DNA of 64,000 bases, taken from assembly GCF_021390495.1 (NCBI RefSeq), contig NZ_JAJEJP010000001.1:744001-808000 (forward strand), given 5' to 3'. Both the position numbers and the translations under genes were made by a program. The notes beneath the pieces were generated by a model. That model searched no databases and was not told where the DNA came from. It worked only from the letters and a program-made list of their open reading frames with translations. Shown here one piece after another: positions 5,352-29,137 of the stretch. Source of the stretch: Paraburkholderia sp. ZP32-5. GTDB lineage: Bacteria > Pseudomonadota > Gammaproteobacteria > Burkholderiales > Burkholderiaceae. Position 1 is the stretch's first letter, and every line of letters begins with the position of its first letter.

Positions 5352-5353
5352 AG

Positions 5354-6172: not shown

Positions 6173-6176
6173 TATT

Positions 6177-6956
6177 GTGAGTTCTTCATCGATTGTCGCT
6201 CGTAACATCTCCGTCGAATTTCCGATTTACGAGAACTCGCATCGCTCGCTGAAAAAAGCGGTGCTCAATCTGACGACGGGTGGCCGGATCGGCCAGGACG
6301 CGGGTCGCCATGCGATCGTCCGCGCGATCGACGATTTGAGCTTCACCTTCACGGAAGGCGAGCGCATCGGCCTGATCGGCCACAACGGCTCGGGCAAGAC
6401 GACGCTGCTGCGCACGCTGTCGGGCGTCTATGCGCCGGTGCGCGGCGAACTCAAAGTGCAGGGCAAGATCGCGTCGCTGCTCGACGTGTCGATGGGCCTC
6501 GACCCCGACGCGACCGGCTTCGAAAACATCTATCTGCGCGGCATTCTGGATGGCCTGAAGCCCGCGCGCATCCGCAGCAAGATCGACGAGATCGCCGACT
6601 TCAGCGAACTCGGCGACTACCTGAATCTGCCGGTGCGCACCTATTCGAGCGGGATGATGCTGCGCCTCGCGTTCGCGATCTCGACGAGCGTCGAAGCCGA
6701 CATCCTGATCATGGACGAGTGGCTGAGCGTCGGCGACGCCGAGTTCAGCGTGAAGGCGGCCGAGCGTCTGGAAGGTCTCGTCGGCAAGGCGGCGCTGCTG
6801 GTGGTCGCGTCGCACGATCCGTCGCTGGTCGCGCGCGTGTGCAACCGCAAGATCTCGATGGAGCACGGCAAGATGGTCGCCGACGAGCCGGTGCTGCCGC
6901 CGGAAGAAAAAACCGACGAGCCGCTCGTCAGCCACACCGCGCAGTTGCCGCATTGA
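6177..6956 (+). CDS. wzt: O-polysaccharide ABC exporter, ATPase
   Basis: ATP-binding partner of Wzm, 259 residues. Walker A GHNGSGKTT is at residues 68-76, the signature region YSSGMMLRLAFAIS at about 156-169, and Walker B with catalytic Glu (ILIMDEW) at about 176-182. It begins at GTG. The protein ends soon after the nucleotide-binding domain, so it lacks the long C-terminal carbohydrate-binding domain of Wzt proteins that recognise a capped chain end; this is the short type. Downstream 6957-7192 shows no gene. Confidence 0.93.
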   Translation: MSSSSIVARNISVEFPIYENSHRSLKKAVLNLTTGGRIGQDAGRHAIVRAIDDLSFTFTEGERIGLIGHNGSGKTTLLRTLSGVYAPVRGELKVQGKIASLLDVSMGLDPDATGFENIYLRGILDGLKPARIRSKIDEIADFSELGDYLNLPVRTYSSGMMLRLAFAISTSVEADILIMDEWLSVGDAEFSVKAAERLEGLVGKAALLVVASHDPSLVARVCNRKISMEHGKMVADEPVLPPEEKTDEPLVSHTAQLPH

Positions 6957-8575: not shown

Positions 8576-10185
8576 TCGGCGTCGCGTTTGCGGATGCGCG
8601 CGCGGACGCCGGCCAGTACGTGCTGGCGGCGCTGCGGCGCTCGGTCAGCGCGACCCAGGCACAGGCGATCACACGCGGCATGCTGCATGAGATCGCACCG
8701 GATATCGTGGTCGCCGTCGATGCGCCGGATGCGTGGAGTGCGGATCTGATCGCATTCGTAGAAGGGAAAACAGGCAGCCATACAAGCGGCCAAACCAGCC
8801 CGCGCCCGCGCAAGCTGATCGTGTTCGGCCATATGCCGATCGCCCTCGCTGACTATCTGCGCTATCGGCCGACGAGCCTGTCGCCCGAATTCGCGCCAGC
8901 GAGCCGCAGCGAGCCGGCGCCTGCATACGAGTCGCGCGAAAGCGCGGCCGCGGTGCGCTATAGCGCATTGGCGCAAACGCTCGGCGGCCAGCCGTGGCAT
9001 CGCCCGTTCGAGCGCTTCGACTTCACCGACGAATGGAACAACCTCGGCTACGGTGCGATCCGCGCGGACGGCTCGATCTGGGCGCTCGCCGAAGCGCCCG
9101 AAGTGCCCGCCGAGGCCGAGCTGGCCGCGGTCGTCGTCAACGGTGAGCGCCAGTTCGCGTACGCAGCGCTATGGGATGCCGGCGCGGCGGGCGTGCTGTG
9201 GTTCAACCGCCCGGTCGGCCCGTGCGATTCGTTCGAATGGCGCCTCGTCGAGCAATTTCTGTCGGGCTATCGCGCCGACGCACTGCCGTGTCAGCCGGTC
9301 TTGAGCGAGTTGCCGTGGGGCTACGACGCGGCGATCACGTCGCGGCTCGATTGCGATGAAGACGTCGAATCGGCGCGGCCGCTGTGGCAGGCCTATCAAC
9401 GCCTCCGCGTACCGTTCTCGCTCGCGGTGCACACGCACAATCTGCAGCGCGGCGATCAGCACGAGATCCTGCGCGAACTGCTCGCCGACCGACAGCAGGG
9501 CGCGGTGCTGTCGCACACTGCCACGCATTCGCCGAACTGGGGCGGCAGCTACGACACCGCGTTCGCCGAGGGCGCGCAATCGGCTGAACTGCTCGAACGG
9601 GCGACCGGCGTGCCGGTGCGCTACGCGGTATCGCCGTTTCACCAGTCGCCGCCGTATGCGATGCGCGGGCTGATCGACGCGGGCTATTCGGGTTGCGTCG
9701 GCGGCATCATTCGCAACGATCCCGAGTTTCTGAGCGCGCGCGGCGGCGCGCTGGCGGGTTTGCCCGAAGGCTTTATCGGCCATAGCCAGCAGTGCATGCT
9801 GCACGGCGACTGCATGCTGAAAAAGGGCGATCCGCTCGCGATCTTCAAGCAGGCATTCGATAACGCGTACGCAACCAACACGCTGTTCGGCTATCTCGAC
9901 CATCCGTTCTCCGAGCGCTACGCATACGGCTGGTCCGATGAAGCGGCGCGCATCGACGCGCACGAGCGGCTGATCGCGTACATACGCGGTGTCGCGCGCC
10001 GGCCGCTGTTCCTGCACGAAGAGGCTGCGCTCGATTTCCTGCGTTTCAGGTCGCTCGCGCGGATCGTCGAACAGGACGGCGCGTTCAGCGTCGTCACGCC
10101 GTTCGCGGATACGACGCCGCTCACGCTAGGCGTCGAGTTCCGGGGTACACATACGCAGGTCGAAGCGGGGAAAGCACTGCAATGA
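8572..10185 (+). CDS. putative polysaccharide deacetylase-like (NodB-fold) protein
   Basis: A 537-residue protein. The C-terminal half looks like a carbohydrate esterase 4/NodB-type metal-dependent deacetylase: SRLDCDED at residues 257-264 would supply the catalytic/metal Asp residues and SHTATHS at 314-320 the HxxxH metal pair. The N-terminal ~240 residues are not recognised. No signal peptide is visible, so it should act in the cytoplasm, perhaps on a nucleotide- or lipid-linked N-acetyl sugar. It overlaps the CapK-like gene and wecB by four bases each, suggesting deacetylation linked to acyl replacement. The family call rests only on two motifs. Confidence 0.62.
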   Translation: MIGVAFADARADAGQYVLAALRRSVSATQAQAITRGMLHEIAPDIVVAVDAPDAWSADLIAFVEGKTGSHTSGQTSPRPRKLIVFGHMPIALADYLRYRPTSLSPEFAPASRSEPAPAYESRESAAAVRYSALAQTLGGQPWHRPFERFDFTDEWNNLGYGAIRADGSIWALAEAPEVPAEAELAAVVVNGERQFAYAALWDAGAAGVLWFNRPVGPCDSFEWRLVEQFLSGYRADALPCQPVLSELPWGYDAAITSRLDCDEDVESARPLWQAYQRLRVPFSLAVHTHNLQRGDQHEILRELLADRQQGAVLSHTATHSPNWGGSYDTAFAEGAQSAELLERATGVPVRYAVSPFHQSPPYAMRGLIDAGYSGCVGGIIRNDPEFLSARGGALAGLPEGFIGHSQQCMLHGDCMLKKGDPLAIFKQAFDNAYATNTLFGYLDHPFSERYAYGWSDEAARIDAHERLIAYIRGVARRPLFLHEEAALDFLRFRSLARIVEQDGAFSVVTPFADTTPLTLGVEFRGTHTQVEAGKALQ

Positions 10186-11303
10186 AAGTGATGGTGGTGA
10201 TGGGCACGCGGCCCGAGGTCATCAAGCTCGCGCCGCTGGTGCGCGCGTTGCGCCGCGAGTGCGAGACGATCGTCTGCGCGAGCGGGCAGCACAAGGACAT
10301 GGCCGCGCAGGCGCTCGAATTCTTCGGCATCGAGCCGGACCTGACGCTCGAGACGATGCATCCGGGGCAGTCGCTGAACGCACTCGCGTCGCGTCTGATC
10401 GCCGCGCTCGATCGGGCGCTCGATGAAGTGCGTCCCGACTGGGTGATCGTGCAGGGCGATACGACGACCGCGTTTTGTGCGGGCTTCGCGGCGTTTCAGC
10501 GCGGCATCCGCGTCGGCCACGTCGAGGCGGGGCTGCGTACCGGCGACCTCGCGAGTCCGTTTCCGGAAGAGGCGAATCGCAGCCTGCTCGGCCGCATCGC
10601 GACGCTGCATTTCGCGCCGACCTCGCGCGCGCGCGGCAGCCTGCTCGCCGAAGGCGTGGCGGCGGAGAAGATCATCGTCACCGGCAATACCGTCGTCGAT
10701 GCAATCGCCGAAGTGCGCGATAGTTGGAACGTGACGCCGCCGGCGAGCCCGCTGCCTGAGTGGCACGGCGCGCAGAAGCAGCACGTGCTCGTCACCTGCC
10801 ATCGGCGCGAAAATTTCGGCGACGTGCTGCAGGACATCTGCCGCGTGTTGCGCGATCTGTGCGAGCGCTATAGCGATTACCGCTGGGTGTTCCCGGTGCA
10901 TCTGAATCCGGCCGTGCGCGGGCCCGTGCATCGCGAACTCGATGGCATTGCGAACCTCGCGCTGATCGAGCCGGTCGACTATCCGACCAGCCTGCATCTG
11001 ATCAGCGGCAGCGCGGTCGTGGTCAGCGACTCGGGCGGCATTCAGGAGGAAGCGCCGACCTTCGGCGTGCCGGTCGTCGTGATGCGCAATCACACCGAGC
11101 GGCGCGAAGGCGTCGACGCGGGCTTCGCGACGCTCGCCGGCCAGAGCGCGGCCAGTATCGAAAGCGCGGTGTGCGGCTGGCTCGACGATCCGGCGCGGCG
11201 CGCGGCGCTGCGCAATCGCGCGAATCCGTATGGCGACGGCCACGCGTCGCAGCGCATCGTCGAGAGCCTGCGCGGCCGGCCGGTCGAGGTGTTCGTTGGC
11301 TGA
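10182..11303 (+). CDS. wecB: UDP-N-acetylglucosamine 2-epimerase (non-hydrolysing)
   Basis: Interconverts UDP-GlcNAc and UDP-ManNAc. The 373-residue product begins MKVMVVMGTRPEVIKLAPL, the family N-terminus, and carries GHVEAGLRTGD, FPEEANR, the VVSDSGGIQEEAPTFGVPVV loop and RNHTERREGV, all diagnostic. ATGA overlap with the upstream deacetylase-like gene and an eight-base overlap with the downstream glycosyltransferase show a tightly coupled operon. No UDP-ManNAc dehydrogenase is seen in the window, so ManNAc itself or a modified form may be used. Confidence 0.94.
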   Translation: MKVMVVMGTRPEVIKLAPLVRALRRECETIVCASGQHKDMAAQALEFFGIEPDLTLETMHPGQSLNALASRLIAALDRALDEVRPDWVIVQGDTTTAFCAGFAAFQRGIRVGHVEAGLRTGDLASPFPEEANRSLLGRIATLHFAPTSRARGSLLAEGVAAEKIIVTGNTVVDAIAEVRDSWNVTPPASPLPEWHGAQKQHVLVTCHRRENFGDVLQDICRVLRDLCERYSDYRWVFPVHLNPAVRGPVHRELDGIANLALIEPVDYPTSLHLISGSAVVVSDSGGIQEEAPTFGVPVVVMRNHTERREGVDAGFATLAGQSAASIESAVCGWLDDPARRAALRNRANPYGDGHASQRIVESLRGRPVEVFVG

Positions 11304-12558
11304 CGGCAAGCGCGGCGCGCTTCCGCTGGTTCCGGCGCAGGACTGCGTGCTGTTTTCGACCGCGGATTGGGACGAACCGTACTGGACCAACAAGCAGCAC
11401 ACGGCGAGCATCCTCGCCGCGCGCGGCTGGCGGATCCTGTACGTGGAGAGCGTCGGCTTTCGCGCGCCGAAGGTCGGCAGCGGCCGCGACTGGTCGCGGC
11501 TGTGGCGGCGGCTGTGGCGCGGTGTGCAGTCGCTGGTGCTGGGGCCGCCACGCCGCGCGGACAACGTCTGGGTACTGTCGCCGCTGATGGTGCCGGCCGG
11601 GCATCACGTGCCGTTCGTGCGCTCGCTGAATCAGGCGATGCTGCGCTTTTCCGTGAACCGCTTTGCCCGTTCGCACCGCTTCGACAAACCGGTCGTGTGG
11701 ACGTATCACCCGTACATGCTCGATGCGATCGCGACGCTGCCGCGCGGGCCGCTCGTCTATCACTGCGTCGACGATATCGCGGCGATTCCGGGCGTCGACG
11801 TCGACGCGTTTCGCAGCGCGCAGCAGGATCTGCTCGGGCGCTGCGAAGCGGTGTTTACGACCGCGCAATCGCTGAAGGACGTGTGTTTGCCGTTTAACCG
11901 CAACACGCATTTCTTCGGCAACGTGGTGGACGACAAGCACTTCGGCGAAGCGCGCACCGACGGGCCGCTGCCCGCCGAGCTGGCCGCGATCGCCGAGCCG
12001 CGGCTCGTCTATCACGGCGTGCTGTCGGACTTCAAGGTCGACTTCCCGTTGCTGCTGAAGACCGCGCAGGCGCGGCCGCAATGGCAGTGGGTGATCATCG
12101 GCGAGGAGCGCGAAGGGCAGCGCAGCGAACTGTTCGCGCAACTCGCGCGCCTGCCGAACGTGCATCTGCTCGGCTACCGGCCGTATCAGGCGCTGCCGCA
12201 ATACCTGCGCGGGATGCGGGTTGGCGTGCTGCCGACGTTGATCAACGAGTACACGCACTCGATGTTTCCGATGAAGTTTTATGAATATCTGTCAGCGGGT
12301 CTGCCTGTCGTGTCGACGCCGCTCGATTTCGCGAGAGAATCGCGCACGGGGCTCGAGGTGGGTGGCGATGCCGATGCGTTCATCGCGGCGCTTGAAAAGC
12401 AGCTCGCGCGCGGCAAGCTGAGCGCGGACGAAGCGCGCGCGGCGGTCGGCGAGAATACTTGGGAAGCGCGACTGGACAAGATGCTGGCGATCACGTTTCA
12501 GGGCTCCCAGGCAGATGGCGGCAGTGCGCGGCCATGCGGCGCGGAGGTGCGCACGTGA
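11296..12558 (+). CDS. glycosyltransferase (GT-B, family 1/4-like)
   Basis: A 420-residue cytoplasmic glycosyltransferase. N-terminal features include WDEPYWTNKQH and the VYHCVDDIAAIPG segment seen in GT-B enzymes that transfer onto lipid-linked glycans. The C-terminal donor domain has LGYRPYQALPQYL, MFPMKFYEYLSAGLPVVSTP and a conserved Glu. The start is taken at TTG 11296, preceded by GAGG six bases upstream and overlapping wecB by eight bases; an in-frame GTG further in is an alternative. The sugar and acceptor are unknown. Confidence 0.82.
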   Translation: MADGKRGALPLVPAQDCVLFSTADWDEPYWTNKQHTASILAARGWRILYVESVGFRAPKVGSGRDWSRLWRRLWRGVQSLVLGPPRRADNVWVLSPLMVPAGHHVPFVRSLNQAMLRFSVNRFARSHRFDKPVVWTYHPYMLDAIATLPRGPLVYHCVDDIAAIPGVDVDAFRSAQQDLLGRCEAVFTTAQSLKDVCLPFNRNTHFFGNVVDDKHFGEARTDGPLPAELAAIAEPRLVYHGVLSDFKVDFPLLLKTAQARPQWQWVIIGEEREGQRSELFAQLARLPNVHLLGYRPYQALPQYLRGMRVGVLPTLINEYTHSMFPMKFYEYLSAGLPVVSTPLDFARESRTGLEVGGDADAFIAALEKQLARGKLSADEARAAVGENTWEARLDKMLAITFQGSQADGGSARPCGAEVRT

Positions 12559-13703
12559 GGGTCGTTCATGTGTACCGCACGTACTTTCCCGATCCGCCCG
12601 GCGGCTTGCAGGAAGCGATCCGGCAGATTGCGTTGTCGACGCGCGAGCGTGGCGTCGAGCCGCGCATCCTGACGCTGTCGCCGACACCGCGTCCGACCGT
12701 CGTCGACTATCCGGAAGGGCAGGTGATCCGCGAGAAATCGTGGGCCGCGCCGGCTTCGTGCGATCTCGGCGGACCGGGCTCGGTGATCCGCTATCGGCAG
12801 ATGGTCGAATGGGCCGATGTCGTGCATTTCCATTTTCCGTGGCCGTTCGCCGATGTGCTGCATCTGCTTGGGCGCACGAACAAGCCCACGGTGATGACGT
12901 ATCACTCGGACATCGTGCGGCAGAAGGCGCTCGGCGCCGTCTATGGACCGCTGATGCGGCGCACGCTGCGCAGCATGTCCGCGGTGGTCGCGACGTCGCC
13001 GGCCTATGCGCGCACCAGCGAGACGCTGGCCGCGAATGTATCGAAGGACCGCCTGAAGACGATTCCGCTCGGCATCATTGATTACCGCGACGCGCCGCAG
13101 CCGGCTGACGCGCAACACAAAGTACAAACGCGGCTCGGTCTCGCGCCTGGCGAACCTTATTTTCTGGCGCTCGGCGTGCTGCGCTATTACAAGGGCCTGC
13201 ATACGCTCGTCGAGGCGGCGCGGCATGTGAAGGCGCGCATCGTGATTGCCGGGTCCGGGCCGGAGCGCGATCGTTTGGCCGCGTTGGCGCAGCAGCACGG
13301 CGCGAGCAACGTCGTGTTTGCCGGCCAGGTCACGCATGACGAAAAGGTCGCGCTGCTGAAGGATTGCCGCGCGATGGTGTTGCCGTCTCACCTGCGCTCC
13401 GAGGCATTCGGCATGGTGCTCGTCGAAGCGGCGATGTTCGACAAGCCGATGGTGTGCTGCGAGGTGGGCTCGGGGACATCGTTCGTCAACGAGAACGGGG
13501 TGACGGGGTTTGTCGTCGCGAAGGAACAGGCACAAGAGCTGGCTCGCGCGATGAATGCGCTGCTCGACGACGACACGCTGGCAGCCACGATGGGGCGCGC
13601 CGCGCGTGCCCGCTATGAAAAGCTGTTTTCCGGCGAGGCGCTCGGCAAGGCTTATAGTGCGCTGTACCAGGAAGTCGCGCAAAACCACATGGGGAAAGGT
13701 TAA
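12555..13703 (+). CDS. glycosyltransferase family 4
   Basis: A 382-residue GT-B glycosyltransferase. It begins at a GTG that overlaps the previous stop (GTGA). N-terminal RVVHVYRTYFPDPPGGLQE has the glycine-rich acceptor-side loop. The C-terminal half has the GT4 elements ILxLGVLRYYKGLHTLVEA, IAGSGPERDRL, and the SEAFGMVLVEAAMFDKPMV segment with the conserved EX7E pattern. Four bases separate its stop from the HAD-UbiA gene, tying the arabinose-type block to the same operon. Confidence 0.88.
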   Translation: MRVVHVYRTYFPDPPGGLQEAIRQIALSTRERGVEPRILTLSPTPRPTVVDYPEGQVIREKSWAAPASCDLGGPGSVIRYRQMVEWADVVHFHFPWPFADVLHLLGRTNKPTVMTYHSDIVRQKALGAVYGPLMRRTLRSMSAVVATSPAYARTSETLAANVSKDRLKTIPLGIIDYRDAPQPADAQHKVQTRLGLAPGEPYFLALGVLRYYKGLHTLVEAARHVKARIVIAGSGPERDRLAALAQQHGASNVVFAGQVTHDEKVALLKDCRAMVLPSHLRSEAFGMVLVEAAMFDKPMVCCEVGSGTSFVNENGVTGFVVAKEQAQELARAMNALLDDDTLAATMGRAARARYEKLFSGEALGKAYSALYQEVAQNHMGKG

Positions 13704-13707
13704 CGGA

Positions 13708-15132
13708 ATGCAATGGAAGACACTGGCCGTCGATCTGGACGGCACGTTGATACGATCGGACATGCTGATCGAGACGGCATTCGCTTTTCTGAAGGCCAAT
13801 CCGTTGCATTTCTATCGACCGTTGCTGTGGCTCGCGCAAGGCGGCAAGGCGCATCTGAAGGCCAAACTCGCGGACGCGACTCACGTCGACGTGACGACGT
13901 TGCCATATGACCCGAAGGTGATCGAATGGCTGAAGCACGAACGCTCGGCGGGCCGCTCGCTGGTGCTCGCCACCGCTAGCGACGCGCGCTACGCGGAGGC
14001 AATCTCGGGCCATCTCGGCCTGTTCGACAAAACGCTCGCGACGGACGGCAAGGTCAATCTGTCGTCGGGCCGCAAGCGCGATGCGCTGGTGCGCGAGTTC
14101 GGTGATAAAGGCTTCGACTACGCGGGCAACTCGCATGACGACATCGCAGTATGGGAGGCCGCGGAGCGTGCATACGTGGTGAACCCGGCGTTCGGCGTCG
14201 AACGGCGCGCGCAAAAAATCGGCAACGTCGAGAGCGTGCTGCAAACCCGCAAGAATCCGCTGCGCGTATGGCTGCGAGCGTTGCGCATGCATCAGTGGCT
14301 GAAGAATCTGTTGATCTTCATTCCGCTGCTGGCTTCGCATCAGGTGTCGTCGCTCGAACTCGATCTGCGCGGCGTGCTGGCCTTCGTGCTGTTCGGGCTG
14401 TGCGCGTCGAGCGTGTATCTGTTGAACGATCTGCTCGATCTCGATGACGACCGGCACCATCCGACCAAGCGGCGGCGGCCGTTCGCATCGGGGGCGCTGT
14501 CGATCGTCTGGGGCCTCGTCGCGTTTCCGGTGTTTGCGGTCGGCGCATTTGCCGGTGCGCTGATCTGGCTGCCCTGGCGCTTTGCCGCGGTGCTGGCCGC
14601 CTACTACGTGCTGACGATGGCGTATTCGTTCCTGCTCAAGCGGCGCGTGATGCTCGACGTCGTGGTGCTGGCGATGCTTTATACCGCCCGCATTATCGCC
14701 GGCACGGCTGCGTTCAGAATGACGCTGACGTTCTGGCTGCTGGCCTTCTCGATGTTTCTGTTCCTGAGTCTCGCGCTCGTGAAGCGCTACGCCGAATTGC
14801 ATGCGACGCGTGCGGCGGGCAAGGCGAAGGCACGCGGGCGCGGCTATGTGGCCGATGACCTGTCGATGATCTCGTCGCTCGGCGCGGCATCCGGCTATCT
14901 GGCCGTGCTGGTGCTCGCGCTCTATATCCAGGACTCGCAAACCACGCATCTGTACCGGCATCCGCAGGTGATCTGGCTCGCGTGCCCGTTGCTGCTGTAC
15001 TGGATCAGCCGCACGTGGCTGATCACGCACCGCGGCCTGATGCATGACGACCCGGTCGTGTTCGCGGCCAAAGACCGGACCAGTCTGCTCGTCGTCGCGC
15101 TGATGGGTCTCGTGTTCTGGCTCGCCATATGA
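13708..15132 (+). CDS. HAD phosphatase - UbiA prenyltransferase fusion (DPPR synthase-like)
   Basis: A 474-residue fusion. Residues 1 to about 175 are a HAD hydrolase: nucleophile motif VDLDGTL (Asp9, Asp11) and motif IV GNSHDD at 140-145. Residues ~185-474 are a polytopic UbiA domain with NDLLDLDDDR at 240-249 followed by HPTKRRRP at 251-258, the subclass signature of polyprenyl-phosphate 5-phosphoribosyltransferases (M. tuberculosis Rv3806c). Such an enzyme attaches phosphoribose from PRPP to polyprenyl phosphate, and the HAD domain could remove the 5-phosphate. The ATGA overlap with the DprE1-like gene supports the first two steps of polyprenyl-phosphoryl-arabinose synthesis. Confidence 0.85.
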   Translation: MQWKTLAVDLDGTLIRSDMLIETAFAFLKANPLHFYRPLLWLAQGGKAHLKAKLADATHVDVTTLPYDPKVIEWLKHERSAGRSLVLATASDARYAEAISGHLGLFDKTLATDGKVNLSSGRKRDALVREFGDKGFDYAGNSHDDIAVWEAAERAYVVNPAFGVERRAQKIGNVESVLQTRKNPLRVWLRALRMHQWLKNLLIFIPLLASHQVSSLELDLRGVLAFVLFGLCASSVYLLNDLLDLDDDRHHPTKRRRPFASGALSIVWGLVAFPVFAVGAFAGALIWLPWRFAAVLAAYYVLTMAYSFLLKRRVMLDVVVLAMLYTARIIAGTAAFRMTLTFWLLAFSMFLFLSLALVKRYAELHATRAAGKAKARGRGYVADDLSMISSLGAASGYLAVLVLALYIQDSQTTHLYRHPQVIWLACPLLLYWISRTWLITHRGLMHDDPVVFAAKDRTSLLVVALMGLVFWLAI

Positions 15133-16448
15133 CGAAGGCGCTCAGATCCTGGGGACGCTATCCGGATTGCCCGCAAGCGGGCCACCCGGCGCAGTGGCGC
15201 GACGATCTGCAAGCGGTGTGGAGCCGTGTAGCGAGCGCGAACGGCACCACGCTCGCCTATGGGAACGGACGCAGCTATGGCGACAGCTGCCTCGCGGCCA
15301 GCGATCAGGTCGTGCATACTCGGCCGCTCGATCGGCTGATTGCCGTCGACTGGCAGACCGGTGTGCTGCGGGCGGAAGCCGGCACGACGCTCGACGAAAT
15401 CCTGCAGGTGGCGGTGCCGCGCGGCTGGATGCTGCCGGTCACGCCCGGCACCAAGTACGTGACGCTCGGCGGCGCGGTCGCCAACGACGTGCATGGCAAG
15501 AACCATCACGTGCGAGGTACGTTTGGCCGGCACGTGCGGTGTTTCTGCCTGTTGCGCAGCGACGGCACGCGGCTCGAGTGCACGCCGGATTCGCATCCCG
15601 AATTCTTTGCCGCGACGATCGGCGGTCTCGGGCTCACCGGCGTGATCGCGTGGGTCGAAATCCAGTTGATGCCGATCCGTTCGAGCCAGATCGCGGTGAC
15701 GAGCATCCGCTTCGATAACCTCGACGAGTTCTTCTCGCTATCGGAAGAACTCGACAGCAAGCATGAATACAGCGTCGCGTGGATCGACTGTTTGAGCCGC
15801 GGCGCCGCGCTCGGCCGCGGCATCTTCATGGTCGGCGATCATGCGCAAACGGGCAGCCTCGAATTGCCGGTCAAGAAAAAGCGCACCGTGCCGATCACGC
15901 CGCCCGTGTCGCTGATCAATCCGCTCACGCTGCGCGCGTTCAACACGCTGTACTACCAGCGTCAGCAGCGCAAAACCGTGTATAGCGAAGTCGACTACGA
16001 CAGCTACTTCTATCCGCTCGACAGCCTGCTCGAATGGCATCGCATCTACGGCAAGCGCGGTTTTCAGCAGTACCAGTGCGTGCTGCCGCAGGCGCGTTCG
16101 CGCGATGCGATGCATGCGATTCTGGAGACGATCGGCAAAAGCGGCACCGGCTCGTTTCTCGCGGTGCTCAAGCGCTGTGGCGATCTGGTGTCGCCGGGAC
16201 TGCTGTCTTTTCCGATGGAAGGCGCGTCGCTCGCACTGGATTTTCCGCAGCATGACGAAGGCAACCGCGTGCTGTTCGAACGGCTCGATGCGATCGTCAG
16301 GGAAGCGGGCGGACGCATCTACCCGGCGAAGGACGCGCATATGTCGGCGCGCGATTTCCAGAGCGCCTATCCACAATGGCATCAATTAGAGGCACTGCGC
16401 GATCCGGCGCTGATGTCCCGTTTTTGGCAACGAACCACACAGACATGA
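15129..16448 (+). CDS. dprE1: decaprenylphosphoryl-ribose 2'-oxidase-like FAD enzyme (DprE1-like)
   Basis: A 439-residue FAD-linked oxidase of the vanillyl-alcohol-oxidase fold. YGNGRSYGDS at residues 44-53 and GGAVANDVHGKNHH at 114-127 are the FAD-binding motifs shared with mycobacterial DprE1; RIYPAKD places a Lys at about 401 where DprE1 has its catalytic Lys418. At the position of the benzothiazinone-reactive Cys387 the sequence reads SLALDFP, so Ala replaces Cys by eye alignment. It would oxidise C2' of polyprenyl-phosphoryl-ribose. Start ATGA-overlaps the UbiA fusion and its stop overlaps the DprE2-like start. Confidence 0.85.
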   Translation: MTKALRSWGRYPDCPQAGHPAQWRDDLQAVWSRVASANGTTLAYGNGRSYGDSCLAASDQVVHTRPLDRLIAVDWQTGVLRAEAGTTLDEILQVAVPRGWMLPVTPGTKYVTLGGAVANDVHGKNHHVRGTFGRHVRCFCLLRSDGTRLECTPDSHPEFFAATIGGLGLTGVIAWVEIQLMPIRSSQIAVTSIRFDNLDEFFSLSEELDSKHEYSVAWIDCLSRGAALGRGIFMVGDHAQTGSLELPVKKKRTVPITPPVSLINPLTLRAFNTLYYQRQQRKTVYSEVDYDSYFYPLDSLLEWHRIYGKRGFQQYQCVLPQARSRDAMHAILETIGKSGTGSFLAVLKRCGDLVSPGLLSFPMEGASLALDFPQHDEGNRVLFERLDAIVREAGGRIYPAKDAHMSARDFQSAYPQWHQLEALRDPALMSRFWQRTTQT

Positions 16449-17185
16449 AAAAAGTCCTGATAGTCGGCGCGACTTCCGCCATTGCCATCGCCTGCGCGCG
16501 CCGTTGGGCGGCCGAAGGCGCGGCATTGTTCATCGTCGGGCGGCATGCCGAGCGCCTCGACCAGATCGGCGCCGATCTGGTCGCGCGGGGCGCCGCGTCG
16601 GCAACAAGCCACGTACTCGACATGAACGATTTCGACGGCCACCAGGCGATGCTCGATGCCTGCACGGCGGCACTCGGCGGTATCGACGTCGCGTTGATCG
16701 CGCACGGCACGCTGTCGGATCAGAAATCCTGCGAGCAGGACGTGAAGGTTGCGCTGCGCGAGCTGTCGACCAATGGGCTGTCGGTGATTGCGCTGCTGAC
16801 GCCGCTCGCCAATCTGATGGAAGGCGCGAAGACCGGTGTGATCGCGGTGATTTCGTCGGTGGCCGGCGACCGCGGACGGCCGTCGAACTATCTGTACGGC
16901 ACCGCGAAAGCCGCGGTGAGCACGTTCTGCGAAGGTCTGCGCGCGCGCCTGTTCAAATCCGGCGTGCATGTGCTGACCATCAAGCCCGGTTTCGTCGCGA
17001 CGCCGATGACCGCCGGCTTGCCGCTGCCCGGCCCGCTCGTCGCGACGCCGGAGCGGGTCGCGAACGATATCGTGCGCGCGGTCGAGCGCAAGAAAGATTC
17101 GATTTATACGCCGTGGTTCTGGTCGGGAATCATGCTGATCATCCGCTCGGTGCCGGGCTTCCTGTTCAAGCGGACGTCGCTGTAG
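16445..17185 (+). CDS. dprE2: decaprenylphosphoryl-2-keto-arabinose reductase-like SDR (DprE2-like)
   Basis: A 246-residue classical short-chain dehydrogenase. KVLIVGATSAIA is the NAD(P) glycine motif, IAVISSVAGDRGRPS carries the catalytic Ser, and YGTAK at 151-155 supplies Tyr and Lys. With the DprE1-like oxidase it would complete ribose-to-arabinose epimerisation at C2 on the lipid carrier. ATG at 16445 overlaps the upstream stop by four bases, although the frame is open further back. The function is inferred mainly from the neighbouring UbiA and DprE1-like genes; an SDR alone would be ambiguous. Confidence 0.8.
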   Translation: MKKVLIVGATSAIAIACARRWAAEGAALFIVGRHAERLDQIGADLVARGAASATSHVLDMNDFDGHQAMLDACTAALGGIDVALIAHGTLSDQKSCEQDVKVALRELSTNGLSVIALLTPLANLMEGAKTGVIAVISSVAGDRGRPSNYLYGTAKAAVSTFCEGLRARLFKSGVHVLTIKPGFVATPMTAGLPLPGPLVATPERVANDIVRAVERKKDSIYTPWFWSGIMLIIRSVPGFLFKRTSL

Positions 17186-17316
17186 ATCGCACGCGGTACG
17201 GGCAAAGGAACTTCGTTCGGCGAAGGATGCGCGTGCCGCACCGTTTACAATGGCGGGTTCAAGTACGGTTGACCTTTGGCTGCCGGTTCTTCAAAGATTA
17301 GCTTAACGACAGATCA

Positions 17317-18255
17317 ATGAACAATACACGCATCATTCTTCCCGGCGGCGCGGGTCTGGTTGGCCAAAACCTCGTCGCGCGGCTCAAGCAGCGCGGCTAC
17401 ACGAACCTCGTCGTGCTCGACAAGCATCGCGCGAATCTCGACGTACTGCGCGGCGTGCATCCGGACATCACGATCGAATATGCCGATCTCGCGGAACCGG
17501 GCGACTGGGTCCGCTATTTCGACGGCGCCGAAGTGGTGGTGATGCTGCAGGCGCAGATCGGCGCCCCGACCATCGAGCCGTTCATCCGCAACAACATCAC
17601 ATCGACCGAGCTGGTGCTGGAAGCGATCAAGCGCTACGACGTGCCGTACACCGTGCACATCAGTTCGTCGGTCGTGAACTCAGTGGCGAAGGATTTCTAT
17701 ACGGACACCAAGCGCAAACAGGAAGAGATCGTGCTTGCGTCGGGCATCGAGTGCGTGGTGCTGCGTCCCACGCTGATGTTCGGCTGGTTTGATCGCAAGC
17801 ATCTGGGCTGGCTGTCGCGTTTCATGCAGCGCGTGCCGGTGTTTCCGATTCCCGGCAGCGGCCGTTATATGCGTCAGCCGCTGTATGCGGGCGATTTCTG
17901 CAACGTGATCATCAGTTGCATCGAGTCGCGCAAGAGCGGTGCAGCATTCAATATCAGCGGCCGCGAAAAGGTCGATTACATCGACATCATCCGGCAGATC
18001 AAGCGGGCGACCAAAGCTCGTTGCGCGATCATCCGCATCCCGTACGGACTGTTCTACGTGTTGCTGAAGATCTACGCGCTGTTCGACAAGAACCCGCCGT
18101 TTACGGCGTCGCAATTGAAGGCGCTGACCGCGGGCGACGAGTTCGAAGTGATCGACTGGGAAGGCATTTTCGGCATCAAGGCGACGTCGTTCGCCAACGC
18201 CGTCGACGAAACCTTCAACGATCCGGTGTACAGCAGCATCGCGCTCGAATTCTGA
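17317..18255 (+). CDS. NAD-dependent epimerase/dehydratase family protein
   Basis: A 312-residue extended SDR: IILPGGAGLVGQNL is the Rossmann motif, ISSSVVNSVA the Ser region, and YTDTKRKQE the YxxxK pair. The C-terminal domain has VLRPTLMFGWFDRKH and GRYMRQPLYAGDF. Its substrate is unknown; it could act on a nucleotide sugar or a lipid-linked sugar. It follows the DprE2-like gene after 131 bases with no clear promoter, and precedes an FAD oxidoreductase by about 13 bases, so these two probably form a functional pair placed between the arabinose genes and the GtrA gene. Confidence 0.75.
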   Translation: MNNTRIILPGGAGLVGQNLVARLKQRGYTNLVVLDKHRANLDVLRGVHPDITIEYADLAEPGDWVRYFDGAEVVVMLQAQIGAPTIEPFIRNNITSTELVLEAIKRYDVPYTVHISSSVVNSVAKDFYTDTKRKQEEIVLASGIECVVLRPTLMFGWFDRKHLGWLSRFMQRVPVFPIPGSGRYMRQPLYAGDFCNVIISCIESRKSGAAFNISGREKVDYIDIIRQIKRATKARCAIIRIPYGLFYVLLKIYALFDKNPPFTASQLKALTAGDEFEVIDWEGIFGIKATSFANAVDETFNDPVYSSIALEF

Positions 18256-18268
18256 ACTGGACGTGAGT

Positions 18269-19552
18269 ATGAGCAACGAAAAAATTGCGGTGCTGGGCGC
18301 GGGCCCGATGGGACTGGGCGTCGCGTATCAACTCGTGAAGGACGGCCGCAAGCCGGTCATTTTCGAGGCGGACGACCGCGTCGGCGGCATGGCCGCGTGT
18401 TTCGATTTCGGTGGCTTGTCGATCGAGCGCTACTACCATTTTCATGCGATCTCCGACCACGCGTTCTTCGAGGTGCTGCGCGAACTCGGCATCGAAGACC
18501 AGTTGAAATGGGTCGAGACGAAGATGGGCTATTACTACCAGGGGCATGTGCAGGCATGGGGCAACCCGATCGCGCTGCTCAAGTTCAAGGGGCTCAGCTT
18601 CAGCGCCAAGTTCCGCTACGGGCTGCACGCATTCCTGTCCACCAAGCGCAATGACTGGCGCCCGTTGGACCATGTCGAGGCCTCCGGCTGGATTCGTCGC
18701 TGGATCGGCGAGGAAGCATGGGAAGTGCTGTGGCGCAAGCTGTTCGACTACAAGTTTTACGACTACGCGTACAACCTGTCGGCCGCATGGATCTGGAGCC
18801 GGATTCGCCGTATCGGCCGCTCGCGCTACGACCTGTTCCGCGAAAAGCTCGGCTATCTGGAGGGCGGCTCGGATACGCTGCTTGAAGGCATGCGGCGCTA
18901 CATCGAGGCGAACGGCGGTGAATTCCGTCTCGGCTCGCCCGCGCAAAAGGTGGCGATCGAAAACGACGCGGTCGCGGGCGTCCAGGTGAATGGCGAACTG
19001 CTGCCGTTCGACAAGGTCATCAGCACGATTCCGTTGCCGTATGTGCCGCGCGTGATGCCTGATTTGCCCGCCGATGTCGCGACCGCGTTCAGGAGCGTGA
19101 AGAATGTCGCGGTGGTGTGCGTGATCGCGAAGCTGAAGAGAGCGGTGACGCAGAACTTCTGGCTGAACGTGAACGATCCGGATATGGATATCCCCGGCAT
19201 CGTCGAATACACGAACCTGCGCCCGCTCGACGAGCACGTCGTGTACGTACCGTTCTATATGCCTGGCGAGCACGCGAAGTATCAGGACGCGGACAGCGTG
19301 TTCATCGACAAGGTGAAGCGCTATCTGATGCGGATCAATCCGGCACTGAGCGAGCAGGATTTCATCGACGTGCGGGCAAGCCGCTACCGCTACGCGCAGC
19401 CGATCTGCGAGCCGGGCTTCCTCGATCGCCTGCCGCCGATCCAGTTGCCGGTCAAGGGGCTGCTCGTCGCCGATACGTCCTATTACTATCCGGAAGATCG
19501 GGGTATTTCGGAAAGTATCGGCCTCGCTCGCAAGATGGCGAAAATGCTATGA
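18269..19552 (+). CDS. FAD-dependent amine-oxidase-like oxidoreductase
   Basis: A 427-residue flavoprotein with an N-terminal dinucleotide motif VLGAGPMGLG, then FEADDRVGGMAACFDFGG, the usual pattern of the amine oxidase / UDP-galactopyranose mutase / phytoene desaturase superfamily. The C-terminus LLVADTSYYYPEDRG followed by ESIGLA matches the second FAD-contact region of that superfamily. The reaction is not known; mutase or desaturase chemistry on a glycolipid is possible. ATG 18269 is chosen, with an in-frame GTG six bases earlier as alternative. Its stop overlaps the GtrA start by four bases. Confidence 0.75.
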   Translation: MSNEKIAVLGAGPMGLGVAYQLVKDGRKPVIFEADDRVGGMAACFDFGGLSIERYYHFHAISDHAFFEVLRELGIEDQLKWVETKMGYYYQGHVQAWGNPIALLKFKGLSFSAKFRYGLHAFLSTKRNDWRPLDHVEASGWIRRWIGEEAWEVLWRKLFDYKFYDYAYNLSAAWIWSRIRRIGRSRYDLFREKLGYLEGGSDTLLEGMRRYIEANGGEFRLGSPAQKVAIENDAVAGVQVNGELLPFDKVISTIPLPYVPRVMPDLPADVATAFRSVKNVAVVCVIAKLKRAVTQNFWLNVNDPDMDIPGIVEYTNLRPLDEHVVYVPFYMPGEHAKYQDADSVFIDKVKRYLMRINPALSEQDFIDVRASRYRYAQPICEPGFLDRLPPIQLPVKGLLVADTSYYYPEDRGISESIGLARKMAKML

Positions 19553-19971
19553 CGGCTGAATCAATGGGTATCAAGCGGAAACTGGCGTCGCCGCAATTCC
19601 TGAAGTTTCTGCTCGCGGGCGGCGTGGCGGCCGCGGTGAATTTCGGCAGCCGGATTGTTTTCAATCACTGGATGCCGTTTTCCGCCGCGATCGTGGTCGC
19701 TTATATCGCGGGCATGATCACCGCGTTCGTGCTGACGAAGCTGTTCGTGTTTACCGAAAGCGAGCGCCCGACATGGCAGTCGGCGGTGTTCTTCACGCTC
19801 GTGAATGTGGTTGCGGTGCTGCAGACGTGGGCAGTTAGCGTGGCGCTCGCGTACTACGTGCTGCCGTGGCTGAATATCACGTGGCATCCGAAGGAGATTG
19901 CTCACTTCGTCGGCGTTGTCGTGCCGGTGTTTACGAGCTACATCGGCCATAAGAAGCTGACGTTCAAGTAA
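19549..19971 (+). CDS. GtrA family membrane protein
   Basis: A small (140-residue) integral membrane protein with four predicted helices. FLKFLLAGGVAAAVNFGSR and the C-terminal FTSYIGHKKLTFK are hallmark GtrA features. GtrA proteins take part in moving polyprenyl-phosphate-linked monosaccharides across the inner membrane, and the mycobacterial member Rv3789 is linked to arabinan synthesis. Here it ends the operon that holds the polyprenyl-phosphate-arabinose genes, which fits export of that donor to the periplasm. ATG 19549 overlaps the preceding stop (ATGA). Confidence 0.88.
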   Translation: MTAESMGIKRKLASPQFLKFLLAGGVAAAVNFGSRIVFNHWMPFSAAIVVAYIAGMITAFVLTKLFVFTESERPTWQSAVFFTLVNVVAVLQTWAVSVALAYYVLPWLNITWHPKEIAHFVGVVVPVFTSYIGHKKLTFK

Positions 19972-19991
19972 CGCTTAGTGAGTCTGATATG

Positions 19992-20036
19992 AAGTGGCCG
20001 TGCGCCGCCAGCTTGAGGCGACGTACGGCCACTTTG
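19992..20036. terminator. convergent hairpin terminator
   Basis: AAGTGGCCGT (19992-20001) pairs perfectly with ACGGCCACTT (20025-20034) and an inner CGCC/GGCG can extend the stem. It lies between two convergent genes, directly next to the stop of the - strand gene. On the + strand only a short T run follows, so efficiency is uncertain. Confidence 0.65.
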
Positions 20037-21659
20037 TCATTTCTGCAGAGTGCAGAAGCGGTCGCCGACCAGCGCGTAAGCGCGCAGGTCTTTCTCGCCG
20101 GGCTTCGCGAAGCCGACCCAGCCTGCGTCCCTGGGCGCGTTCTTCACGTTGGCCTTCACGTCATCACGTCTTTTGCCGGACACGCCGTATCCGACCGTTT
20201 CGCCGGCGGGGTTCACGAGAACAATCAGCAACGAACTACGGCGATGAGTGGGCGCGACGACCCAACCGGACGCGGTGATGCCGACGCTGTCGGGCGTGAC
20301 CGTATCGAGAAAGCCGGTGCAGCGCGAGTCATCGACGAAGTCTTTACTGAACCTGACGAGGCCGGCGTCGTGGAGCCAGCCGCGCGAATAAGGTCCAATT
20401 TCGTATTCCGCGGCGAACTTCGCGTCGTCCACATAGACGGAGTGAGCGCTGAGCGGGAAGATCAGACCGTCCAGTTCCTGATGGTCGAGGCCGATCTTTT
20501 GCGACAGCACCGCCAGTTTCCAGCGGTACAGAACCTCGATATCGCCGTTCACGTTGTGCTGGAATTTAGCGAGGAACGTGAGAAAGACGAGCGGGATGAG
20601 TACCACGAGCGTGCGCGCGCGCTTCGTCGACGCGAGATCGAGGGCGAGTAACGACAGCACCAGAAAGCCCAGCAGTGCGGGCAGCGTATAGCGGCTCGCC
20701 ACCGCGGCCGGCAGACCCATCATCCAGCGCCCCTGGGTGGCGCCGACGGCCGACGCGACGACAAGACCATAGCCCGCGATCAGAAACGAGCGATACGGTG
20801 TGAAAAGACGCTTCCTGTACAGATGGAGTGTGGCAACCGCGGCCAGAACGAGCAGACCAAAGCCGGCGATTCCAGCCAGTTCGAGGCGATTCGTGATCCA
20901 GAAGACCGGGTTACCCAGAAAGATCAGGAAGAACTTCGGCCGGGCCAGCGAGACGTGAGCGACCGCGGGATCGAGCGGCAGAATCGGCTTGACGAAGTGA
21001 TAAAAATAAACCGCGTTCGCGATAGCGCCTGCTACCAGGACTGTCGCGATTTCGCGCCACGACCGACGCAGCAGCACCCCTTGCACCGCCATCACGAAGA
21101 ACGTCGCGACGCCGTTGCCCATGCTGAGTTCCGCGCACACGCAGAAGAACAGCCCCAGCGCGACCCGCCTTACGCTGTTGGTCGGCCGCGAGTAAAAAGC
21201 GAAAGCCAGCATCGCGAACAGATAGATCGCGATGAACTGGCTTTGAAAGCCCCATTTAAGGTTGTCGTTCTGTGTCCACGAAAAGATGAACGAAAAAATG
21301 ATACCGATGATGAGGAACGGCGAATATCGAACCGTGTGCCACTTTTTATGTTCAAGCCAGATCGTCACACCGAGGCACACGACCAGCAAATAAATGGCGA
21401 CGATATTAAATACGTTCCAGCCGCCGAACACGTAGATATCGAGGAAAAACAGAATCCGTGGAATGACGATGCGGTGGTCCATATGCTGCGACCAGAAGAA
21501 CCCGTAGTCACCATTCACTATGGCCTGGTAGAAGCCGATATAGCCATTCCACTGATCCCAGAAAGGGATCGGCGAAAAATAGTGAAATCCCCCATAGATG
21601 GAGGTCGCTACGATAAAGATGCCCAGTAGCGCGCCCCACAGAGAATAGATGCGCTGCAA
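20037..21659 (-). CDS. polytopic membrane protein, putative GT-C glycosyltransferase
   Basis: A 540-residue protein with about ten to twelve hydrophobic segments and a hydrophilic C-terminal domain of roughly 120 residues. The first extracytoplasmic loop has PFWDQW (residues 32-37) and SQHMDHR (57-63), a pattern common in uncharacterised GT-C-like proteins, where the loop Asp acts as base and polyprenyl-phosphate sugars are donors. The start is TTG 21659: AGGAG lies exactly six bases upstream and the membrane segment follows directly; the longer open frame adds only a non-conserved-looking basic extension. It converges on the GtrA operon. Donor and acceptor are unknown; a polyprenyl-phosphate-arabinose-dependent transferase is a reasonable hypothesis. 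Confidence 0.68.
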   Translation of the reverse strand: MQRIYSLWGALLGIFIVATSIYGGFHYFSPIPFWDQWNGYIGFYQAIVNGDYGFFWSQHMDHRIVIPRILFFLDIYVFGGWNVFNIVAIYLLVVCLGVTIWLEHKKWHTVRYSPFLIIGIIFSFIFSWTQNDNLKWGFQSQFIAIYLFAMLAFAFYSRPTNSVRRVALGLFFCVCAELSMGNGVATFFVMAVQGVLLRRSWREIATVLVAGAIANAVYFYHFVKPILPLDPAVAHVSLARPKFFLIFLGNPVFWITNRLELAGIAGFGLLVLAAVATLHLYRKRLFTPYRSFLIAGYGLVVASAVGATQGRWMMGLPAAVASRYTLPALLGFLVLSLLALDLASTKRARTLVVLIPLVFLTFLAKFQHNVNGDIEVLYRWKLAVLSQKIGLDHQELDGLIFPLSAHSVYVDDAKFAAEYEIGPYSRGWLHDAGLVRFSKDFVDDSRCTGFLDTVTPDSVGITASGWVVAPTHRRSSLLIVLVNPAGETVGYGVSGKRRDDVKANVKNAPRDAGWVGFAKPGEKDLRAYALVGDRFCTLQK

Positions 21660-21665
21660 TCGATA

Positions 21666-21670
21666 CTCCT
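21666..21670 (-). promoter_or_regulatory. ribosome binding site that fixes a TTG start
   Basis: AGGAG on the - strand, six bases before TTG 21659, is the best Shine-Dalgarno site in the region and supports the TTG start of the GT-C-like gene over the longer open frame. Confidence 0.6.
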
Positions 21671-21727
21671 GGCCCAAAAAGTTGGGGCGAACATAACAAA
21701 TCGGGTAGTTCCCGTCCAGTCTTGATT

Positions 21728-21760
21728 GGTTGGGGCGGCGTGCCGCTGGCCGCCCCAACC
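21728..21760 (-). terminator. perfect 12-bp inverted repeat, likely terminator
   Basis: GGTTGGGGCGGC (21728-21739) and its exact complement (21749-21760) form a 12-bp GC-rich stem with a nine-base loop, 16 bases after the stop of the - strand methyltransferase. There is no T run, so it may be a weak or Rho-assisted terminator, or a partial attenuator before the GT-C-like gene. Confidence 0.55.
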
Positions 21761-21775
21761 GGCACGCACGTGTTA

Positions 21776-22933
21776 TCAGTGAACGTCGAGTATCGCCGGC
21801 GTGCGGCAATGGGTGAGCGATAAAGGCTGAAGCAAGCGTCCTTCCCGCCAGCCGAAATGCTGATAATGCTCGTGCGCGTCTACGCCGGCCGCGGCCACGT
21901 CGGGATTGGCGGCGAGATAGTCGTGTGCATCGAAGCCGGGCGGTAGCGCAACCGGTTCATCGGGATCGAGTTCGCTGCGCTGTCCACAAACGCGCGCCGC
22001 GCTCTTGTCTGTATCGTGTATCGCGTGCAGTTCCTTCAACTTGCGGTGCGCACGCCAGAACGGTACCGTCGGCGTCGCATCGCTAGCCAGCCGCTCCATC
22101 CGCCGCCAGCTATCGGCGATATAGGCACGATCCCGTGAGCGCCGCATCACGACAGAAAACTCGATGTCGTTATAAAGCGTGTCGCAGAATTGCTCGCAGG
22201 CGAAATCGATCAACTCCATTTCGCTGAGATCGGCGATCAGCTTCGCAAACGAGTGCGGCGTGAAAACCCAGCAGTGAATGTCGTGATAGGTGCCGTTTTC
22301 GAACGCGTCGCGTGCGAGATGCAACGCGCCTTGCCATGTATGATGCCGCCTCGCTGAATCCACGTTGATCCGTCGTTGCCATGCGTCCAGAGCGGAGACT
22401 TCGGCAGCGGACAGACAGTGATCGAGCAGCGAATAAGGCTGCGGTATCCGCGCCCGCGCGATATAGCTCGCCAGAACTTCAGGCAGACGGCTTTCGCGGC
22501 GGAAGTAGTCGAACGTGAAGCGTCTGTCGGGTACGACGAGACGCACCTCGCCGGTGGGTTTCAGAACAGCGGCCAGTTCTCTGAGCCATGTGACGAGATC
22601 GGGGACATGCTCGACGACGTGCGACGCGACGACATAGTCGACATACCGGCCGTTGATCGCCTCATGCAGCGTATTGCGCCCCCACACCGCGTCGACGTCG
22701 ACGATCTCATCGATGTTCAGATGAGGGTCGTCCTTGTACTTCTGACGAAGGTGGGGCGTATCCGTGTGGTCCACATAGATGACTTCACCACCATCGCAGC
22801 GGCGTACGAGCGGCCAGCAAAGCGGGCCTATTTCGACGCCGACGCTGCCCTTGACGTCCAGGCCTTTCAGCAGACGGCAGCGCCTGTTGTCACGAATTTC
22901 ATTGATGCCGAGACTATTGTCTTCCTTCGCCAT
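21776..22933 (-). CDS. SAM-dependent methyltransferase with C-terminal NPDV-type tail
   Basis: A 385-residue protein. The N-terminal part is a class I methyltransferase: VGVEIGPLCWPL is a motif I-like glycine loop, followed by VVASHVVEHVPDLVTWLREL and LKPTGEVRLVVPD (post-motif regions of Methyltransf_11 type). The last ~60 residues contain FDAHDYLAANPDVAAAG followed by HYQHFGWREGR, a short module that recurs at the ends of many bacterial secreted or glycan-related proteins. The ATG at 22933 has a strong GAGGAGG. It likely methylates a sugar or a glycan end. A 76-base gap separates it from the dehydrogenase. Confidence 0.8.
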   Translation of the reverse strand: MAKEDNSLGINEIRDNRRCRLLKGLDVKGSVGVEIGPLCWPLVRRCDGGEVIYVDHTDTPHLRQKYKDDPHLNIDEIVDVDAVWGRNTLHEAINGRYVDYVVASHVVEHVPDLVTWLRELAAVLKPTGEVRLVVPDRRFTFDYFRRESRLPEVLASYIARARIPQPYSLLDHCLSAAEVSALDAWQRRINVDSARRHHTWQGALHLARDAFENGTYHDIHCWVFTPHSFAKLIADLSEMELIDFACEQFCDTLYNDIEFSVVMRRSRDRAYIADSWRRMERLASDATPTVPFWRAHRKLKELHAIHDTDKSAARVCGQRSELDPDEPVALPPGFDAHDYLAANPDVAAAGVDAHEHYQHFGWREGRLLQPLSLTHCRTPAILDVH

Positions 22934-29096: not shown

Positions 29097-29137
29097 CGCG
29101 TCGACAGCGCGATCCAGTAGATGCGCGCCGTCACTCG

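Follow-up and report, generated by a model that had tools for sequence, protein, structure and literature searches.

The window analysed here is a stretch of 64,000 nucleotides from Paraburkholderia sp. ZP32-5 (C1:744001-808000 of a genome of 9.09 Mb). It carries a run of six genes that resembles the polyprenyl-phosphoryl-arabinose pathway, directly downstream of genes of an O-polysaccharide locus and facing a convergent gene for a putative glycosyltransferase of the C fold (GT-C). Two genes of the run, for which we use the working names Epi and FAD, encode an extended short-chain dehydrogenase/reductase (SDR) and a flavoprotein, and are the main subject of this analysis. The features of the run and its right flank are as follows.

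13708-15132, + strand: HAD-UbiA fusion (474 aa), predicted polyprenyl-phosphate phosphoribosyltransferase with a phosphoribose phosphatase domain, leading from phosphoribosyl pyrophosphate (PRPP) to undecaprenyl-phosphate (undP)-ribofuranose
15129-16448, + strand: DprE1-like FAD oxidase (439 aa), predicted to oxidise undP-ribofuranose at C2
16445-17185, + strand: DprE2-like SDR reductase (246 aa), predicted to reduce the keto group, giving undP-arabinofuranose
17186-17316, no strand: short gap between the DprE2-like and Epi genes, where many relatives have a GT-C-type gene
17317-18255, + strand: Epi, extended SDR of the NAD epimerase family (PF01370, 70.5 bits), predicted second conversion enzyme
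18263-19552, + strand: FAD, flavoprotein of the PRK07233 type, predicted to work with Epi
19549-19971, + strand: GtrA-family protein (PF04138, 58.5 bits), predicted flippase of a lipid-linked sugar, of the subfamily found in type B cassettes (defined below)
19992-20034, no strand: inverted repeat between the convergent genes, with 18-nt arms that are 89% complementary and 7 nt between them
20037-21659, - strand: GT-C-fold membrane protein (540 aa) with a TTG start after AGGAG, predicted transferase using a lipid-linked pentose

An earlier note on this DNA (the original prediction) had placed a polyprenyl-phosphoryl-D-arabinose pathway inside an O-polysaccharide operon and coupled it to glycosyltransferases and an ABC exporter. 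A pathway from polyprenyl-phosphoryl-ribose to the arabinose form, next to an ABC-type O-polysaccharide locus, is borne out by the layout, as the UbiA start lies 4 bp past the stop of the second of two glycosyltransferase genes and relatives of wzm and wzt are found at 5030-6956. The coordinates also agree with the 4-base overlaps noted at the HAD-UbiA/DprE1-like and DprE1-like/DprE2-like junctions, and the GtrA gene, which overlaps the preceding gene by 4 bases, is indeed the last of the run. The gene list of the note was right for the three core enzymes and GtrA, but it overlooked Epi and FAD, which lie within the interval it covers, as well as the gene of the GT-C-fold protein, which converges on the run just past the right edge.

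The HAD-UbiA protein exhibits the HAD motif DLDGT at residue 9 and the previously noted signature NDxxDxxxDR/HPTKRRRP, as NDLLDLDDDR at residue 240 and HPTKRRRP at residue 251. It scores 675.7 bits with the NCBIfam model PRK08238 (cut-off 351) and 150 bits with the decaprenyl-phosphate phosphoribosyltransferase model PRK12324.1-4, below the cut-off of 207, whereas the haem O synthase model gives 24.9 bits. Its only sequence matches in the PDB at E<=0.001 are 8j8j and 8j8k, forms of decaprenyl-phosphate phosphoribosyltransferase, with E=5.7e-30 for 8j8j (Rv3806c-type). The residues mutated in the ORF15 fusion of Citrobacter youngae, namely D18; N247, D248, D251 and D255; R366 and E369 (PMC11127046), have counterparts in D9; N240, D241, D244 and D248; R360 and E363, assigned by motif and spacing, with no ORF15 alignment. 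The combination of a UbiA-type phosphoribose synthase bearing NDxxDxxxD with a phosphoribose phosphatase, which characterises pentofuranose side-chain systems, is therefore found here.

The DprE1-like protein aligns over its residues 5-420 with solved DprE1 in the PDB (E=1.4e-68). Ten DprE1 positions, which we take to be parts of the active site, were compared, and seven are kept: Y50, H122, K124, Q314, Q316, K348 and K401 are equivalent to Y60, H132, K134, Q334, Q336, K367 and K418 in DprE1. The other three, Y314, N385 and C387 in DprE1, are replaced by F, S and A, Cys387 being presumably the benzothiazinone-binding residue. The DprE2-like protein exhibits the motifs SSVA at residue 137 and YGTAK (YxxxK) at residue 151 and passes the cut-off of the NCBIfam model PRK07102 (353.5 bits, cut-off 267). 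The DprE2 chain 21gq_C is the top of its 385 SDR matches in the PDB, with 108.6 bits, the next reaching 68.6 bits. Judging from motifs, profiles and matches to solved structures, the three proteins are predicted to be enzymes of the polyprenyl-phospho-ribose/arabinose pathway.

With respect to the second half of the run, Epi exhibits the motifs GGAGLVG at residue 10, SSS at residue 116 and YTDTK at residue 128. A role of FAD as a ring mutase similar to UDP-galactopyranose mutase (UGM) is less favoured, because UGM lies about 4 Z units under the best fold match and is weak in sequence. A GtrA-family protein (PF04138) is the candidate flippase; no search aimed at MATE genes was made.

The linkage of Epi and FAD with the arabinose pathway is close to strict. 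UbiA matches (E<=0.001) are present in 76 of 117 genomes of the same genus. A FAD search of the 117 genomes gave, among the matches listed, 20 full-length orthologues with at least 83% identity, the rest being proteins with 28-31% identity or short stretches, and all 20 of these listed orthologues lie beside UbiA, DprE1, DprE2, Epi and GtrA. Samples of the order and the phylum contributed 13 more orthologues (at least 47% identity) and 10 FAD-family proteins (27-33%). Among 33 FAD loci (at least 45% identity), 32 contain UbiA/DprE1/DprE2, 32 contain Epi and all 33 contain GtrA; in the locus that lacks the three core genes (L129), the contig ends 1.1 kb before FAD. The family-level search found FAD in 14 of 299 genomes and 5 of 25 genera, and the neighbourhoods of 7 of the 14 were examined.

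A broader view is given by 80 named FAD loci, which are the matches listed from a GTDB scan and share some genomes with the set of 33. UbiA is present in 70 of them, DprE1 in 71, DprE2 in 72, Epi in 79 and GtrA in 78, and the contig ends 0.2-6.1 kb before FAD in the ten loci without UbiA. The loci listed include Paraburkholderia, Burkholderia dolosa, B. anthina, Cupriavidus, Pseudomonas, Erwinia and Pantoea, and also Methylobacter, Luteibacter, Variovorax, Candidatus Manganitrophus (L198) and a partial contig of an Anaerolineales metagenome-assembled genome (L180). One of them, L142, is a type B cassette (with FAD; see below) of the laboratory strain P. xenovorans LB400. On plasmids, the order UbiA-DprE1-DprE2-Epi-FAD-GtrA is found in all seven matches, with a FAD identity of 45-72%, five of them being from Rhizobium or Agrobacterium. 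In 50,697 phage records, the UbiA protein had no match at E<=1e-15.

We distinguished loci with FAD (type B) from loci that have DprE1 and DprE2 and neither FAD nor Epi (type A). The 40 genus stretches compared were chosen from the 76 matching genomes, mostly as best UbiA matches, and the resulting counts of 17 type B, 17 type A and 6 with UbiA alone are thus those of no random sample. A different GtrA subfamily (c11) is present in all 17 type A loci and in none of the 33 FAD loci; the one c11 protein tested scores 29.6 bits with PF04138. Trees were built from 57 selected rows (17 type A, 40 type B), two of the c11 rows being less than half filled. The UbiA tree of the 57 proteins has at least 5 switches between types, and a single type A clade is rejected (p-AU of the approximately unbiased test, 5.7e-7). 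In the flippase tree, a single branch, fully supported by SH-aLRT, parts the subfamilies of type A and type B, although this split is partly built in, since the types were assigned by similarity. Because the UbiA tree shows at least 5 switches and the flippases split on one branch, the Epi/FAD pair and its flippase appear to move together, apart from the history of UbiA.

Backbone genes are common to the window and nine of the genus stretches. Four type A loci (L050, L055, L057, L060) share 96-97% identity with the window in wzt and 93-94% in wecB, and 70-71% in UbiA. The corresponding values for the type B loci L035-L038 are 91-93% in wzt, 85-86% in wecB and 91-93% in UbiA, and the type A locus L054 is intermediate (wzt 94%, wecB 89%, UbiA 70%). 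As the type A loci are nearer to the window in their backbone yet farther in UbiA, the cassette as a whole was probably exchanged within an O-antigen locus that was already present, in the manner of a serotype switch.

The original prediction regarded D-arabinofuranose as the finished residue. This part could not be upheld: two further enzymes are locked to the pathway, together with a flippase subfamily of their own, and arabinose is therefore more likely to be an intermediate. In this cassette, D-arabinofuranose is probably such an intermediate, which Epi and FAD likely modify in its lipid-linked form ahead of export. In the sister loci without Epi/FAD, the sugar is more plausibly plain arabinose. 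Six further loci (L066, L067, L068, L072, L073 and L074) contain HAD-UbiA relatives with no DprE1/DprE2 and no Epi/FAD in the stretch examined, and are possibly ribofuranose-type systems.

The product of the convergent gene exhibits a GT-C body followed by a C-terminal beta domain in a predicted structure model, so that a GT-C-fold protein is present by prediction. Foldseek by itself gave no match at E<=0.001 for this model, and the fold assignment rests on a second comparison. The gene probably encodes the transferase that the original prediction left unnamed. In the 29 FAD loci (at least 45% identity) in which DprE2 precedes Epi, the spacing between the two genes is 1.6-3.7 kb in 19 and 21-135 bp in 10, the window included. 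Of the 19 loci with a wide gap, 15 have a homologue of the window's GT-C protein in it, which makes 15 of 29 overall. Two GT-C proteins of the same family are seen at one locus (L134/L035), the operon-internal one with 29% and the convergent one with 51% identity to that of the window. The inverted repeat at 19992-20034 is likely a two-way terminator. A sigma-70 scan of 13500-22000 found no promoter, although such a scan says little in DNA of this kind, and there was no Rfam family at the gathering score and no tRNA by ARAGORN.

From the observed gene content, gene order, motifs, predicted folds, linkage and swapping, we infer each of the chemical steps, what Epi and FAD act on, which acceptor is used and which sugar is transferred. 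The reading that we hold to be reasonably probable is an O-antigen decoration cassette of the pentofuranose kind, in which the SDR and the flavoprotein modify lipid-linked arabinose before export, with the GT-C gene on the other strand. The DprE1-like and DprE2-like enzymes would convert ribose into arabinose at C2. FAD and Epi would act as a second flavin-oxidase/SDR pair and alter this lipid-linked sugar at one further centre, in the likeliest case by a second epimerisation. The GtrA flippase, matched to that product, would export the lipid-linked sugar, and in the periplasm the GT-C protein would transfer the sugar to the O-polysaccharide. ORF13 of C. youngae provides a precedent for an added SDR that resets the side-chain pentose (PMC11127046).

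We propose more tentatively that FAD and Epi are an undescribed oxidase-reductase or mutase-epimerase pair, turning polyprenyl-phosphoryl-D-arabinose into a new lipid-linked pentose donor with its own GtrA flippase, and that the cassette is swapped as a unit against the plain-arabinose version, switching the O-antigen type across and beyond the Proteobacteria. Candidate products would then be D-lyxose, by inversion at C3, or L-xylose, by ring expansion and inversion at C4, as D-arabinopyranose with an inverted C4 is L-xylopyranose (L-Xylp). Lyxofuranose (Lyxf) is reported to occur in no solved carbohydrate structure (PMC11127046); the term lyxofuranose appears in a paper on an O-specific polysaccharide of Coxiella burnetii (PMC9503072). 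A non-stoichiometric beta-L-Xylp side chain of the Ralstonia solanacearum O-polysaccharide is described in PMC10450222, and if L-xylose were the product, the cassette would connect PRPP with a side-chain sugar already reported for an O-antigen. R. solanacearum is absent among the 80 named FAD loci listed, and the cassette could not be shown there.

Several observations weigh against the reading of Epi and FAD as enzymes that extend an arabinose pathway for the O-antigen. The DprE1-like protein misses the cut-off of the NCBIfam DprE1 model (360.9 bits, cut-off 500) and the DprE2-like protein that of the DprE2 model (178.2 bits, cut-off 250); scores below these mycobacterial equivalog cut-offs fit a putative separate branch. 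One FAD locus (L111) has no detected Epi, and the gene order is altered in L109, L110 and L111. Among the named loci, the cut locus L177 has neither Epi nor GtrA and L182 has no GtrA, while L171, of type B, carries in addition a GtrA of type A (c11), which lies ahead of UbiA on the other strand, the sole such case among the 80. The GT-C family of the window is present in only 22 of the 33 FAD loci, and another large membrane protein comes next in three of the five type A loci with the same backbone genes (L050, L055, L060). An O-antigen structure could be tied to none of these loci. UbiA, DprE1, DprE2, Epi and GtrA are found at none of the ten loci of distant FAD-family proteins (27-33% identity), and because these members stand without the pathway, the wider FAD family has other roles. 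A FAD-family protein with 32% identity (L113) lies, by eye, near a GtrB-like GT2 protein and two large GT-C-like membrane proteins, and the wider family may thus also work beside polyprenyl-phosphate sugars.

The fold of FAD, which is nearest to those of isoprenoid desaturases and protoporphyrinogen oxidase, makes a lipid or other substrate conceivable. It thereby leaves room for the view that the final sugar is D-arabinofuranose and that Epi and FAD serve otherwise, for instance on a backbone sugar or the polyprenyl chain. Mycobacterial polyprenyl-arabinose needs UbiA, a phosphatase, DprE1 and DprE2, and homologues of DprE1/DprE2 occur in candidate systems of glycans that contain arabinofuranose (Araf) (PMC11127046). 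Nevertheless, we consider this view unlikely: FAD (at least 45% identity, with enough flank) always occurs with UbiA-DprE1-DprE2, and its presence tracks the change of flippase subfamily. A backbone role in particular is unlikely, because the upstream backbone genes are common to type A loci without the pair.

An acceptor other than the O-antigen, such as a pilin, another protein or an exopolysaccharide, is improbable at this locus. In that case, the tie to the O-antigen would be one of gene position alone. In its favour, type B cassettes occur in several contexts, and D-Araf is placed on the type IV pilin of P. aeruginosa by TfpW (PMC11841053) and on Nod factors through the noe genes (PMC5080398). 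However, the UbiA gene here almost abuts an O-antigen glycosyltransferase gene, and the same wzt-to-glycosyltransferase run precedes UbiA in 9 of the 40 genus stretches. Finally, that the UbiA protein is an ordinary quinone/haem prenyltransferase with unrelated neighbours, the case which the original prediction had itself set against its reading, is hardly credible and is rejected on profile scores, no tree including quinone prenyltransferases having been made: the protein is over the general UbiA cut-off, but it has the phosphoribosyltransferase motifs, the HAD fusion and the higher score with the phosphoribosyltransferase model (150 vs 24.9 bits for haem O synthase), and two stronger general UbiA matches lie elsewhere in the genome (230.5 and 219.3 bits vs 70.5).

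The kind of system preferred here, an O-antigen decoration cassette, is already known. Pentofuranose side-chain systems with three components and a HAD-UbiA fusion were described by Kelly et al. 2024 (PMC11127046), their products being ribofuranose (Ribf), xylofuranose (Xylf) and Araf, with an SDR in the case of Xylf. According to the same source, Xanthomonas and Bacillus have more complex systems, with several candidates for the epimerase or the GT-C, and the Epi/FAD pair may already be drawn in its supplement. The C. youngae O1/O2 systems likewise comprise a HAD (PRP)-UbiA fusion, a flippase and a GT-C enzyme in an O-antigen locus (PMC11127046); in contrast, their flippase is MATE-type and that of the window GtrA-type, and a second SDR and flavoprotein pair is added to DprE1/DprE2 here. 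To GT136 (C. youngae ORF12), the likeness of the GT-C protein is in architecture alone, that is, a GT-C body and a C-terminal beta domain.

The mycobacterial pathway (Rv3806c, DprE1, DprE2, Rv3789, GT-C arabinosyltransferases) shares UbiA-, DprE1- and DprE2-type enzymes, a small GtrA/SMR-type protein (the flippase of mycobacteria being SMR-type) and GT-C transferases, whereas the cassette of the window has a fused HAD phosphatase, two extra enzymes, presumably an undecaprenyl lipid and presumably an O-polysaccharide acceptor. In the group IV pilin system of P. aeruginosa (TfpW), a DPPRS orthologue is proposed for the lipid-linked Araf donor and the transferase is a GT-C protein, but there is no fused phosphatase, the acceptor is pilin, and the available part of the source does not mention the extra pair. 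The noeC(N)HOP genes of Azorhizobium/Rhizobium include orthologues of mycobacterial donor-pathway genes (noeC, noeH, noeO), although the acceptor is a lipo-chitooligomer and no Epi/FAD pair is mentioned in the part of PMC5080398 available. In the gtrA-gtrB-gtr(type) cassettes of glucosylation seroconversion, a serotype-specific GT-C gene likewise accompanies the genes for donor and flippase. There, a GtrB-type UDP-sugar transferase supplies the donor; here it would come from PRPP.

Among the open-licence papers listed, supplements excluded, none dealt with Epi and FAD together or with arabinofuranose as part of a Burkholderia O-antigen, and the available part of PMC12826051 offered nothing relevant. 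What is new, as far as this analysis goes, is that Epi and FAD are strictly linked to the pathway, that the flippase changes along with them, that cassettes were probably exchanged next to a common backbone, and that the window has a GT-C candidate. The conservation of the six-gene operon across alpha-, beta- and gammaproteobacteria, together with its additional flavoprotein and SDR and the flippase that goes with them, predicts a further product. Loci that share a backbone and carry either cassette offer a natural comparison for serotype switching, and two marker genes could serve to separate arabinose-type from extended-type loci.

Upstream of UbiA, the O-polysaccharide locus comprises rmlA-, rmlD- and manC-type genes and the following features.

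5030-6172, + strand: Wzm open reading frame (ORF); with Wzt, the ABC exporter pair of the O-polysaccharide locus (PF01061, PF00005)
6177-6956, + strand: Wzt
10182-11303, + strand: WecB-type epimerase
11230-12558 and 12459-13703, + strand: ORFs of two GT4-type glycosyltransferases, directly upstream of UbiA

The true start of Wzm is probably near 5354, and the model of the galactan-exporter permease gives 271.6 bits in the region of the Wzm/Wzt pair, short of its cut-off of 380. The genes at 7193-8575 and 8572-10185 encode conserved O-antigen-locus proteins with no Pfam match at E<=0.001, which by eye are AMP-ligase-like and deacetylase-like, respectively; relatives with the same backbone genes also have counterparts of the two between wzt and wecB. 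In the rest of the window, a second run of glycosyltransferase genes lies on the minus strand at 28182-36237, with glycosyltransferase families in four of the five proteins tested and none for 28182-29345. A CapD/WbpM-type dehydratase (38985-40865) and a Wzc-type tyrosine kinase (53446-55659) point to a further surface-polysaccharide cluster, and a chemoreceptor gene (43437-45104) lies between them.

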